The position numbers were made by a program, and so were the translations under genes. Positions 5,692 through 11,633 of a stretch of 38,939 nt of DNA are shown here, piece by piece; the stretch's first letter is position 1, and each line of letters begins with the position of its first letter. Origin of the DNA: Rhodobacterales bacterium (GTDB taxonomy: Bacteria; Pseudomonadota; Alphaproteobacteria; Rhodobacterales; Rhodobacteraceae); assembly GCA_030540655.1 (NCBI GenBank), contig JAUNVT010000013.1, positions 1 through 38,939 on the forward strand, read 5' to 3'. The notes beneath the pieces were generated by a model. The model was not told where the DNA came from and made no database searches. It saw only the letters and a list, made by a program, of their open reading frames with translations.

Positions 5692-7890
5692 TCAGGCGAT
5701 CCATTCCTGTTTGTAGTTGCCCTCGGGATTGAAGGCGGTTCCCCAGACGGAAGTCTCCCGCTTGTAGGGCAGCGGCATCTGGGGATCTTCCGATTCGATC
5801 TCGCGAGCGATGCGGTGGCCATCAAAGGTCGCATCGGCCATCAGCTTAGGCGCCCAGGCATCGCCGATCACGTAGATGCCTTTGATATCGTTGGTCTCCC
5901 ATTCGTCCTTGCGCTCTTTCAGCTCGCGGAAGAGCGTGTCGTCGGAGTGACGGCCGGTGACCAGAACCAGCGTGTCGAACTCCAGCCATTTGTGGCTGGT
6001 GTTCTCATTACGGGGAAGCTGTCCGGGACCACGATATTCGCGCTTCGATCCTTCAGCCCAGATATCGTAATATTCGATCCGGCCCTCTTCCACGCGCGAC
6101 GCCCAGGATTCGCCGATGATGTTGATGTTCAGCTCGATCATGCGGCGGCGCATATTCGGATATTCCAGCGTGAAGTGCATGTAATGTCCGAAATCGACGC
6201 CGGTGATCACTGTCACTTCGTGATCTTGCGCTGCAAGCATCTCGGCCAGCGAGGGGGCCATGAAGTAGGTATCGGCGTTCAGTATCACAACACGTTTGCC
6301 GACCTTCTTTTCACCACTGAAAATCTGTTCCGGCGTGATCTGATCAGGACGCGAGGCATCGATGCCGGGCACCGGATCATGGGTCAGACAGTTGACGCCA
6401 TCGGTGTTCCAGTGCGAGCCGGTAGCAATGATCACCTTTTCGGCGCCGTAATTCAGCACATCATCGGCGGTCAGCCTCTTGCTGCCCAAGGACAACTGAC
6501 TGTCGCGGTTCTTCTTGGCCAGCTTGTCAAGCTGCACCTCGCGATAATCACGGTGATAGCCCCATTCCCCCAGACCGGGCAGGCTGGTTACATCATTGAG
6601 ATGGCCGCCAATCTTTTCCGCGCTGTCGGCAAGGTGCGTGACATAGCCGCGCTCCATCAGCACGCGCGCCGCCTCGGAGCCGGCGGGACCCGCACCGACA
6701 ACCAGCACCGTGTCATCCGATCCGGCCTCTGCGAACCGCTCGGGATGCCAGCCGCGCCGGTATTCCTCGCCTGCGGTCGCGTTCTGGGTGCAGATCATCG
6801 GCGGTCCGCCAATCTCCCAACGCGAAATGCAGACGTTGCAGCCGATGCAGGTCCGGATATCGTCCAGCCGCCCCTCTTCGATTTTCTGCGGCATGAACGG
6901 GTCTGAAATCGACGGACGCGCGCAGCTGATGATGTCCAGCTCGCCATTGCGGATGACCTCGGCCATCTTCTCGGCATCGGTGAAGCGGCCGACGCCCAGC
7001 ACCGGCTTCTTCGAATGCTGCTTGACGAAGCGCTGCCACGGAATCTGGTGCCCTTGGCGGTAGTAGCGTGACGGACCAGCATCCTCGCCCCACTGCGCGA
7101 TATCGCCTACGTTGATGTCCCACACATCCACCAGATCATCGGCCATCTGGATCAGCTTTACGCCATCCTCCTCGACCTCGACACCGGCGGTGCCGATCAG
7201 CGTATCGATTGCAAAGCGCGAGGCAATAGCCATATCGTCGCCGACAGCCCTCTTGACCTGCTCCAGAATCTCGACCCAGAACCGACCGCGGTTTTCGACG
7301 CTGCCGCCATAGCCATCTGTGCGGCGGTTGTAATAGGGGCTGAGCCATTGCAGCGGGCCGTAGGTGTGGCCACCGTAAATATTGACAAAATCGAATCCGG
7401 CATCACGGGCTCGCAGCGATGCATCGACGTAGAATTGCTGAACCTGCTTGATGTCCGCCTCGTCCATCTCGTGGCAGTAGCTCAGAGTTTCGAATTCGGA
7501 AACGAACTGGCTGGGACCGCGCGCCGTCTGGCGGGTCTCCATGTTCGGAGCGTGTCCGCCACCATACCACAGTTCGATTCCGGCAAGGCAGTCGTATTCA
7601 TGAACAGCGTCGGTCATCGCGCGCAGGTTGCGCACGTCGCCTGAATCCCAGATCCGGGCCGACACGCGCATCGTGTCATCTGATTCCGGATGAATCGAGC
7701 AATATTCGGTGTTGATCGCGCCCCAACCGCCCTCGGCCTTTACCGCGCGGTGGGCGGCCTGAAATCCCGGTTTATCCGTGCCTGCACCAATGCAATGGGG
7801 GCTCTGGTGAAACCGGTTTCTCATCGTTTTCGGGCCGATCTTGATCGGCTCGAACAGAATATCGTATTTTGCGGGTCTCTTGCTGGCCAT
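5692..7890 (-). CDS. tmd: Trimethylamine dehydrogenase (TMADH-type FMN/4Fe-4S flavoprotein)
   Basis: 732 residues, collinear with Methylophilus TMADH. It is an old-yellow-enzyme TIM barrel followed by FAD/NAD-like domains. Cys33 in SPHCIGAG matches the cysteine that forms 6-S-cysteinyl-FMN. Tyr172/His175 (IYGGH) and the Asp of QWGEDAG match the catalytic Tyr169/His172/Asp267. CIGCNVC...MICTQN supplies the four [4Fe-4S] ligands. The aromatic-bowl residues are Tyr63, Ser77 and Trp108, the trimethylamine set (Tyr60/Ser74/Trp105 in TMADH). Reaction: trimethylamine + H2O to dimethylamine + formaldehyde, with electrons to ETF and no O2 needed. It is the third gene of the operon, 167 nt after the GcvT-like gene. 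DgcA-like dimethylglycine demethylases share the fold, but the close collinearity and the bowl residues favour TMADH. Confidence 0.9.
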
Positions 7891-8015
7891 GACTTGTTCT
7901 CTCTTTCTTGCGTATTGCAGCCGCCCAGCGGCAGAAGGGGTAGAATGCAGTCTTTATGTGCTGGCGTCATCAGAATGTCGGAGCCGGGCCGGTCAGGGGA
8001 GGCGGGCATTGGCCG

Positions 8016-8025
8016 CCCCCCCCCC
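8016..8025. repeat. C10/G10 homopolymer tract in the operon
   Basis: Ten consecutive C on the plus strand (G10 in the mRNA sense) lie in the 167-nt gap between the GcvT-like gene and tmd, just after a hairpin. Such tracts are prone to slippage. Here it is intercistronic, so a length change would alter spacing or RNA structure, not a reading frame. Confidence 0.9.
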
Positions 8026-8028
8026 ATT

Positions 8029-8047
8029 TGCGCCGGCGCCCGGCGCA
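8029..8047 (-). repeat. Intercistronic hairpin after the GcvT-like gene
   Basis: Inverted repeat TGCGCCG (8029-8035) / CGGCGCA (8041-8047) with a 5-nt loop, starting 10 nt downstream of the GcvT-like stop codon. No T-run follows on the minus strand. It looks like an mRNA-stabilising or partial-termination element between cistrons. Confidence 0.6.
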
Positions 8048-8057
8048 GTGTCTCAGG

Positions 8058-9302: not shown

Positions 9303-9346
9303 CCTGCCCCGCCCAATGCTCTCCTGATGTAAAACATTGGGGCAGG
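9303..9346 (-). repeat. Bulged stem-loop between dmd and the GcvT-like gene
   Basis: CCTGCCCC (9303-9310) plus CAATG (9314-9318) pair with CATTGGGGCAGG (9335-9346), with a 3-nt bulge and a 16-nt loop. It lies in the 258-nt gap after dmd and could stabilise the upstream message or attenuate read-through. Confidence 0.6.
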
Positions 9347-9351
9347 TACGA

Positions 9352-9379
9352 CCGGGGTGACGACGGAACGCCACCCCGG
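9352..9379 (-). terminator. Perfect 8-bp stem-loop downstream of dmd
   Basis: CCGGGGTG (9352-9359) and CACCCCGG (9372-9379) form a GC-rich stem with a 12-nt loop, 37 nt after the dmd stop. No T-run follows, so it is at best a partial terminator or an RNA 3'-end stabiliser that would favour dmd over the distal genes. Confidence 0.5.
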
Positions 9380-9416
9380 CCAAAGCTCAATCCAGGGGAC
9401 CAAGCATGCTGCCATC

Positions 9417-11633
9417 TTATAGACGCCATTCCAGATCGGGATTCTCTCCGGGATTGTATGGCACGCCCCAGATCTTCTGCTCGCGCTTGTAGGGCTTCTG
9501 GTGCTGGGGACTTTCATCCTCGATCTCGCGCGCCAGACGGTGACCATCGAACGTGGCATCGGCAATGATACGCGGGGCCTCGGCGTCACCGATGACGTAA
9601 ACCGCCTCGATCTCGTTCTCTGCCCACTCGTCCTTGCGTGCCTTGAGTTCGCGGAACAGGCTGTCATCCGAACGGCGGCTGGTCACCAGGATCACCGTAT
9701 CGCACTCGTGCCATTCATTGGTCTCGTTCTTATGCCGCGGCTTCTCACCACTCCCGCGATACTCGCGCTTGTAGCCATCACCCCAGATGTTGAACAGCTC
9801 GACCCGGCCCTCCTCGACGCGAGAGCATCCGGTATCGCCCAGAACTTTGATACCAAGGTCCTGCAGCATGCGTTGCACGTTAGGACCTTCCAGCGTGTAA
9901 TCCATGAAGGCGCCGACGCCGCAAACACTGGCAATTGTCACTTCGTGACCAGCCCGTGCGTATTTTTCGGCGATGCTGGGAGCGGTATAGTAGGGGTCAT
10001 AGTTGACGATCAGCACCCGCTTTCCGACTTCCTTGCCCTCATAGACCTGCTCGGGCGTCAGCACATGCGGCAGCGACGCGTCGGCACCGGGAATCGGTCC
10101 ATGCGTGAGGTGGTTGATACCGGTCGGGCTCCACTTGGCTCCCGTCGCGATCACGACACGGGCCGCACCGTAATTGAGCACATCATCCGCAGTCATCCGC
10201 TTCTGACCCAGCGCAAGCTGCGAGCCCTTGTTCTTCTTCAGCAGCTTGTCGATCTGGACCTCGCGGTAATCCCGGTGATAGCCCCATTCGCCGAGGCCGG
10301 GCAGAGTCGCGACATCGTTCACATGGCCTCCGACCTTGTCACGCGAATCTACGATATGGACGGTATAGCCCCGCTCCAGCAGCACACGCGCGCATTCCGA
10401 ACCGGCGGGTCCCGCACCGACGATCAGGACATCCTTGTCCGATTTCGCGGGCTCGAACTTCTCCGGATGCCAGCCGCGGCGATATTCTTCGCCGGCAGTG
10501 GCGTTCTGGGTGCAGATGAACGGCACGCCGCCCATTTCCCAGCGGCCGATGCACATATTGCAGCCGATGCAAGTCCGGATATCCTCGATCCGGCCTTCCT
10601 TGATCTTCTTCGGGATGAACGGGTCGGCGATCGACGGCCGCGCCGCGCCGATGATGTCGATGATACCGGAATTGATCACTTCCAGCATCTTTTCGGGATC
10701 GTAGTAGCGACCGACACCCACGACAGGCTTGTTTGTTGCCTGCTTGATATGGCGGATCCATTCGTTCTGGTGGCCGATCGGGTAGAACCGGGACGGTCCC
10801 GCATCCTCGCCCCATTCGGTGATGTCACCGATGGTAACGTTCCACAAGTCGAGATACGGAGAGGCGAGTTCGATGAACCTGAGCCCGTCTTCCCCGATTT
10901 CGATCTCGCTCGGGCCTTTCAACGTATCGATAGCGCAGCGAGTCACGAGAGCCAGATCGTCGCCCACGGCATTGCGGATCTTCTCCAGGGTCTCAATCCA
11001 GAACCGGGCGCGGTTCTCGAAGCTGCCGCCATACTCATCCGTGCGGCGGTTGTAATAGGGGTTCAGCCACTGCATCGGTCCATAGGCATGTGCACCGTAC
11101 AGATCGACAATGTCGAATCCGGTATCGCGGGCGCGCAGCGCCGCGTCCACATAATGCTGCTGCAGGCGCTTGATCTCGTCCGTGTCGGCGGCGTGGTTAT
11201 AGGTAAAGCCGGGGGAGCCTGGAACCGTTGCGAAGTCCGAGTTGTACTGGCTGGGTCCGCGCGCGATGGTCCGCGTCTCGAGCCCGGGACCATGAGGCCC
11301 GGCATAGAACAGCTCGCAACCGGCCAGTGCATCGAACTTGTGAACCTGGTCGACCATCGCGCGCAGGTTGCGCATATCGCCTTCGTCCCAGATACGGGCA
11401 GTAATTCGCAACGTGTCGTCACATTCCGGATGAATGGAGCATTGCTCCGTATTGATCGCGCCCCAACCGCCTTCAGCCTTGACGCCGCGGTGAGCCATCT
11501 GAAATCCGGGGCTGTTTGTACCGGCCCCGATACAATGGGGAACCTGATAGAAACGGTTCTTCAGGGTCTTTGACCCTAGCTTGATAGGTGTGAACAGAAC
11601 GTCATACGCTGACGCGGTGTTATCTTTGGCCAT
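9417..11633 (-). CDS. dmd: Dimethylamine dehydrogenase (DMADH-type FMN/4Fe-4S flavoprotein)
   Basis: 738 residues, paralog of the protein at 5692-7890 along its whole length. Cys34 (PHCIGAG) is the flavin-linking cysteine, Tyr179/His182 (LYGAH) and the Asp of EWGEDAG form the catalytic triad, and CIGCNMC...FICTQN binds [4Fe-4S]. The substrate-bowl positions are Gln64, Thr78 and Phe109. These are the substitutions reported for Hyphomicrobium DMADH relative to TMADH (Tyr60Gln, Ser74Thr, Trp105Phe). Predicted reaction: dimethylamine + H2O to methylamine + formaldehyde, electrons to ETF. It is the first gene of the operon. ATG 11633 is preceded by AAGGAG at a good distance; a longer opening to 11693 lacks family similarity. 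About 20 extra residues near 134-155 relative to the paralog may alter the active-site rim. Confidence 0.9.

Follow-up and report, generated by a model that had tools for sequence, protein, structure and literature searches.

The 38,939-nt stretch of Rhodobacterales bacterium DNA analysed here (the window) carries at positions 272-11633 seven genes which quite likely constitute an oxygen-independent oxidative N-demethylation unit, built around a trimethylamine dehydrogenase (TMADH, tmd) and a dimethylamine dehydrogenase (DMADH, dmd), with folate capture of the one-carbon unit by a GcvT protein and replacement of the oxygen-dependent Dmm as its probable further parts. An earlier note, made from the sequence alone, had placed the two dehydrogenases in open reading frames at 5692-7890 and 9417-11633; both were present and open, on the minus strand, which it had left unstated. 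The pair is real, well supported and, as enzymes, ordinary, and the presence of tmd and dmd in one genome has already been reported (Methylobacillus); what is new is the folate-linked unit and the broken dmm operon found elsewhere in the source genome.

Identity of the two dehydrogenases

Compared with solved structures, both products matched TMADH (1DJN/2TMD) best and histamine dehydrogenase next, with 1281 against 534 bits for the tmd product and 1112 against 513 bits for the dmd product, and they were 71.5% and 63.6% identical respectively to the Methylophilus TMADH 1DJN. In a 113-row alignment both kept Cys30, Tyr169, His172, Asp267, Cys345/348/351/364, Trp264 and Trp355 (1DJN numbering), bearing out the earlier statement that the flavin-linking Cys, the Tyr/His/Asp triad and the four Fe-S cysteines are retained in both proteins; the residue numbers it had given for three substrate-bowl positions (Tyr63/Ser77/Trp108 and Gln64/Thr78/Phe109) were correct. 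In 1DJN numbering this triplet is 60/74/105, reading Y/S/W in the tmd product and Q/T/F in the dmd product. We take these to be the positions that separate TMADH from DMADH, and Q/T/F is said to be the DMADH set that Yang et al. published in 1995. The tmd product has all the residues looked for in a TMADH (Cys30, the triad, the four Fe-S cysteines, bowl residues Y60/W105/W264/W355 and S74), and the dmd product combines Q60/T74/F105, presumably the DMADH mark, with the kept triad and Fe-S ligands.

Alignment and tree data independently support the separation at these positions. The tree held 110 of the 113 aligned rows (the duplicates L130 and L088 and the partial L054 were dropped) and came from a quick search with SH-aLRT support only and a midpoint split. 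The 14 Q/T/F rows formed one clade (SH-aLRT 100) inside a 43-row TMADH/DMADH group (SH-aLRT 100) whose other 29 rows, including 1DJN, were all Y/S/W; the window tmd product fell in this group with the proven TMADH, and the window DMADH clustered with the second copy of Methylobacillus sp. MM3 (L028), a genome from which dmd has been reported. The 29 TMADH-core rows differed from the 14 DMADH rows at 22 columns that were near-fixed in each set (at least 28/29 and 13/14 rows respectively); three of these columns are the triplet and five lie within a six-residue insert present in 15/15 Q/T/F rows (one a duplicate) and 0/98 other rows. Because the Q/T/F rows form one clade and share the diagnostic columns and the insert, the triplet is more than a chance combination. 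The Y/S/W triplet alone is no proof of TMADH, since it is not private to the 43-row group, nine further Y/S/W rows lying outside. Two histamine dehydrogenases (6DE6 and 3K30, triplet Q/E/A) and 38 other rows lay across the midpoint split (support 100), the rest of this 40% clade mostly carrying other sets, and neither window enzyme grouped with 6DE6 and 3K30 in the 110-row tree. Grouping with DgcA- or stachydrine-type demethylases, which the earlier note had named as telling against its assignment, was not seen with the histamine dehydrogenases and the 40% clade as the sole comparison groups. Homology, residues and tree together argue for its assignment of the linked pair as a predicted TMADH and DMADH.

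Two side observations concern the same alignment. His25 and Ser27, near the flavin-linking Cys30, occurred in 6/29 core TMADHs, namely the six from Rhodobacteraceae, the window TMADH among them; the remaining 23/29 had Tyr25 and Val27. A separate TMADH-like subgroup (L038, L039, L040, L041 and L054), to which no substrate is assigned, had Ala/Leu/Trp at the three bowl positions.

Organisation and predicted function of the unit

The minus-strand gene order is dmd-gcvT-tmd-Fe-S oxidoreductase-LRV protein-etfB-etfA (Table 1). The proposal that one operon encodes the enzyme pair stands as regards linkage, but the unit is larger than the pair, the genes for GcvT, Fe-S oxidoreductase, LRV protein and electron transfer flavoprotein (ETF) belonging to it. 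An identical seven-gene order was found in a genome of the same genus (G372) and in one of another genus of the same family (G288), and the window dmd product starts with MAKD as it does in both. Stretches upstream of dmd in the window, G372, G288, L007 and L006 gave no cross-match by blastn and tblastx that would point to a shared motif or regulator (self-matches served as control in a repeat), and scanning the window for Rfam families (gathering threshold) and tRNAs yielded no matches.

Table 1. Genes of the predicted demethylation unit in the window
Feature	Position	Strand	Length (aa)	Basis
dmd, dimethylamine dehydrogenase (DMADH)	9417..11633	-	738	1DJN homology, Q/T/F clade, diagnostic columns, insert
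gcvT/dmmD-like, stand-alone tetrahydrofolate-binding protein	8058..9158	-	366	GCV_T and GCV_T_C domains
tmd, trimethylamine dehydrogenase (TMADH)	5692..7890	-	732	1DJN homology, residues, tree
Fe-S oxidoreductase	3418..5601	-		CCG domain, two 4Fe-4S motifs, six hydrophobic stretches (hydropathy)
LRV/HEAT repeat protein	2042..3421	-		domain match; no role assigned
etfB, electron transfer flavoprotein beta	1229..2014	-		clear family match, below equivalog cut-offs
etfA, electron transfer flavoprotein alpha	272..1225	-		clear family match, below equivalog cut-offs

TMADH converts an amine and water to the demethylated amine and formaldehyde, with electrons passing via FMN and the 4Fe-4S cluster to ETF. 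From the sequence we infer that in this unit TMADH would take trimethylamine to dimethylamine and DMADH would take dimethylamine to methylamine, with a one-carbon unit at the oxidation level of formaldehyde set free in both steps. The flavin and Fe-S cluster would hand the electrons to the ETF encoded in the unit, and quinone would probably receive them by way of the membrane Fe-S oxidoreductase. This oxidoreductase, in which one of the six hydrophobic stretches overlaps an Fe-S motif, is probably a membrane ETF:quinone oxidoreductase. The GcvT/DmmD-like protein encoded between dmd and tmd would probably load the one-carbon unit onto tetrahydrofolate, and at the dimethylamine step DMADH would probably act in place of the oxygen-dependent Dmm, whose operon is decayed.

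The GcvT/DmmD-like protein

The window GcvT matched the trimethylamine N-oxide (TMAO) demethylase model with 239 bits over positions 389-763, and the C-terminal GcvT domain of the solved Tdm (9q59) aligned with its residues 8-365; it scored below the curated GcvT cut-offs (246 of 300, 204 of 236 and 161 of 459 bits). At the positions equivalent to D97, D98 and R228 of E. coli GcvT, which we take to be the folate site, the residues were invariant in every row with a letter there (19 aligned). In being a stand-alone GcvT with this presumed site the protein resembles DmmD; linkage to dmmABC and a place in the DmmD clade were not found for the window protein, and we suggest from likeness that it may work like DmmD, claiming no membership in DmmD. 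In a tree of 49 GcvT domains it grouped with those beside DMADH, the sister group being those behind etfA in TMADH clusters, and these DMADH-side and TMADH-side clades of the Rhodobacteraceae stood apart from DmmD and Tdm.

A stand-alone GcvT (counted above 180 bits) was present in the fetched stretch of 25/45 loci with TMADH/DMADH-group enzymes or near sisters and of 0/49 loci of remoter relatives (8 of these stretches being only ~5 kb long); L104 and L105, pieces of the window and of G288, had been removed from 51 outgroup loci, and L124, a continuation stretch, from 46. The 25 include L019 and L020, where the GcvT belongs to the DmmD clade and lies >8 kb away. These two TMADH clusters may represent a mixed TMADH plus Dmm route. 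Near TMADH/DMADH relatives, a GcvT was found in 0/8 Methylophilaceae loci, among which only L018 and L026 have 10 kb on both sides, and in 2/2 Methylophaga loci. The dN/dS values in the three pairs compared were 0.04-0.07 for DMADH, 0.07-0.11 for TMADH and 0.18-0.35 for GcvT. Between the window and G288, the GcvTs at the equivalent position share only 60% identity, compared with 89-94% for the flanking enzymes. An open-access literature search, mostly at title and abstract level, found no description of a GcvT protein paired with TMADH/DMADH.

The oxygen-dependent route in the source genome

The earlier note had presented the pair as an alternative to the oxygen-dependent Tmm/Tdm/Dmm route. 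As to the whole route this did not hold, for the source genome also has genes for Tmm (819 bits, cut-off 675), Tdm (1184 bits, cut-off 1100) and a TMAO permease (832 bits, cut-off 690), and only Dmm looks broken. PF11927, the catalytic Dmm-type subunit, had no match in the source assembly, which is rated 98.3% complete. A decayed dmm operon lies in the same genome (L117 12298-15083, C107) between open TMAO permease and tmm genes. It is collinear with the dmm genes of G372, which are open, but lacks ~690 bp at the dmmD/reductase junction and ~1050 bp within the PF11927 gene, and what is left of it is spread over several frames; the surrounding tmm, TMAO permease and mgs-like genes are collinear and open. 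In the genus PF11927 matched in 61/84 genomes, of which only 26 reached the 218-233 bits typical of dmm loci; the others, at 30-186 bits, may have another enzyme. DMADH probably replaces Dmm in the source genome.

Distribution and closest known systems

DMADH is rare in the family. Among 295 family genomes drawn, four matched the window DMADH at E <= 1e-200, with a Q/T/F copy in the source genome, G275 and G288 and only a Y/S/W relative in G064, giving DMADH in 3/295 family genomes. In the genus it was present in 2/84: 29/84 matched at 1e-150, only the source genome and G372 with >1000 bits, the other 27 having paralogues of 40-45% identity. A class draw gave matches in 7/385 genomes at 1e-220, and none of the 8 hits in the 6 other genomes, all of which were read, is Q/T/F. 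The window DMADH is 94% identical to that of G288 and 88% to that of G372 (TMADH 89% and 91% respectively); the closer likeness to another genus than to its own would fit transfer or recombination, and is no proof of either. None of 20 other window genes was found by tblastn in the fetched flanks of G372, G288, G275, G064, L006, L007 and L148, and the immediate surroundings of the unit differ between genomes; the flanks fetched upstream of dmd reach 12.9 kb (G372) and 5.4 kb (G288), compared with 22 kb in the window, and a creatinase could still lie further out.

Other arrangements of the genes were also found. G275 and L007 have a GcvT after tmd-FeS-LRV-etfBA and a second beside dmd, and on plasmid IV of Paracoccus aminovorans the order is tmd-FeS-LRV-etfBA-gcvT; dmd lies ~100 kb from there, and the fetched stretch shows no GcvT close to it. 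Ten fetched loci hold tmd and dmd together (L006, L007, L016, L028, L029, L030, L123 of G275, L125 of G288, L143 of G372 and the window), so the linkage is not unique. The tmd-FeS-(LRV)-etfB-etfA core also occurs in Burkholderiaceae, Methylophilaceae, Methylophaga, Hyphomicrobiaceae and others, and 17/20 TMADH-core loci holding both the Fe-S gene and etfB have the LRV protein (all except L019, L020 and L034). In two annotated plasmid stretches tmd and dmd are both named only 'FAD-dependent oxidoreductase'.

Among the closest known systems is the TMADH of Methylophilus methylotrophus W3A1 (1DJN/2TMD) with its ETF, which has Cys30, the triad, the 4Fe-4S cysteines and the Y/S/W bowl in common with the window TMADH, and Methylophilus sp. 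L026 (TMADH 99.9% identical to 1DJN) has the same tmd-FeS-LRV-etfB-etfA order; the window differs from W3A1 in its sequence (71.5% identity), in having dmd and gcvT directly upstream and in His25/Ser27 for Tyr25/Val27. Another is DMADH, known in its Hyphomicrobium X type and from the dmd/tmd genes of Methylobacillus sp. MM3, with the Q/T/F triplet and clade in common; in MM3, however, tmd and dmd lie ~7 kb apart and diverge (L028), with no GcvT in the 15.5 kb fetched. MM3 has been reported to carry tmd, dmd and denitrification genes (PMC6256518). The DmmD of Ruegeria pomeroyi dmmDABC is a stand-alone tetrahydrofolate-binding GcvT protein for which capture of the formaldehyde arising from dimethylamine has been proposed (PMC5520151), as has its transfer to tetrahydrofolate (PMC5520151, PMC4543880). 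The window GcvT is the same kind of protein but is of another clade and has a flavoprotein dehydrogenase as its partner, and unlike the GcvT domain of Tdm (9q59), which is fused to the demethylase, it is separate.

Methylamine step and neighbouring genes

The methylamine step is absent from the window, as had been stated, and candidate genes lie elsewhere in the genome. These are genes for class II amidotransferase, GXGXG and glutamate-synthase domains, which we presume to be MgsABC-like, and for an Mgd-like subunit, which shares 64-68% identity with its counterparts in the trimethylamine clusters of G288 and G275. A gmaS on the same contig as the dmm remnant ends at a 100-N scaffold gap, and no full-length match over the cut-off was found in the source genome, whereas G275, G278 and G288 have one; the truncation, which at first resembled decay, is given no weight because it coincides with that gap. 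A formate-tetrahydrofolate ligase is also encoded.

At 24340-31956, 12.7 kb from the amine unit, the window holds norC-, norB-, norQ- and norD-like genes with a Crp/Fnr-type regulator and NnrS, and an NnrU-like gene named by eye; the flanks fetched from G372, G288 and G275 lack this nor cluster. The source genome has a full-length NosZ-like match of 435 bits (cut-off of the subtype model used, 625), and denitrification would be a plausible partner respiration for the amine unit. A creatinase-like M24 protein at 33811-35019 is followed by an S58-family peptidase and a succinate-semialdehyde-type dehydrogenase, pointing to possible creatine use. A link of either creatinase or nor genes to the amine unit was dropped, as neither is in the fetched flanks of relatives.

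Alternative explanations

Several points weigh against the unit as proposed. With intergenic gaps of ~90-260 bp upstream of the Fe-S gene, the unit is only possibly co-transcribed, and the enzyme tree had no labelled DgcA or Hyphomicrobium X DMADH reference. In 20/45 related loci (8 of them Methylophilaceae, several on short contigs) the fetched stretch has no GcvT. The argument that GcvT is missing where formaldehyde is directly assimilated by the ribulose monophosphate pathway, a physiology we presumed, fits the 8 Methylophilaceae loci but is contradicted, and so weakened, by the 2/2 Methylophaga loci with GcvT, since Methylophaga uses this pathway too; we keep it as a hint only. A glutathione-dependent formaldehyde dehydrogenase is encoded in the source genome, so formaldehyde need not go to folate. 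Because the other DMADH genomes searched (G372, G288 and G275) keep a PF11927 protein, the DMADH module is not usually tied to loss of Dmm, and since the assembly is in 350 contigs, misassembly could account for part of the dmm decay.

It is very unlikely that the window enzymes have the TMADH fold but demethylate other N-methyl compounds, such as dimethylglycine, stachydrine or further amines, in an operon for betaine or creatine catabolism. DgcAB dimethylglycine demethylase operons do join a TMADH-like enzyme to an Fe-S oxidoreductase and ETF as here, and the creatinase-like gene lies in the same window, but both enzymes fall with proven TMADH, to which they are 64-71% identical, and retain the amine bowl, where histamine dehydrogenases have Q/E/A, and the flanks fetched from G372, G288 and G275 showed no creatinase within the reach given above. 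The GcvT might be a DmmD-like leftover or a generic formaldehyde-detoxifying protein with no specific tie to TMADH/DMADH, given that GcvT domains are frequent in the source genome (the Tdm model matched 14 times, mostly through its GcvT part and in some cases only to fragments), that this one evolves several times faster than its neighbours and that L006 and L147 have dmd with no GcvT in the fetched stretch; we think this rather unlikely in view of its absence from the remoter-relative loci, the separate GcvT clades that track DMADH and TMADH and the invariant residues of the presumed folate site. That the dmm decay is an assembly artefact, the genome having both dimethylamine routes, would agree with the many contigs, with the gap interrupting gmaS on the same contig and with the PF11927 protein that accompanies DMADH in the three other genomes, but two clean deletions and several frame changes are confined to dmm between open, collinear neighbours and so complete an assembly has no PF11927 match, making this improbable. 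Tentative and somewhat doubtful, to our mind, is a bolder version of the seven-gene demethylation unit, by which it would be a self-contained, horizontally moving Rhodobacteraceae module with a dedicated folate protein that accepts the one-carbon unit straight from TMADH/DMADH; Dmm would have been displaced here, and trimethylamine and dimethylamine could be used under denitrifying conditions.

Implications

The breakdown of dimethylamine has been called a bottleneck in the marine use of methylated amines, dmmDABC being missing from many bacteria (PMC5520151). We regard the compact folate-linked unit, its rarity in the family and the apparent natural loss of dmm as of moderate interest. If the predicted activities are right, the unit would provide a second, oxygen-independent route past the dimethylamine step, having an electron path of its own and probably folate capture, with trimethylamine and dimethylamine consumed without oxygen, and surveys counting only tmm, tdm and dmm would miss this TMADH/DMADH capacity. 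The naturally broken dmm operon makes the probable replacement of Dmm by DMADH directly testable.

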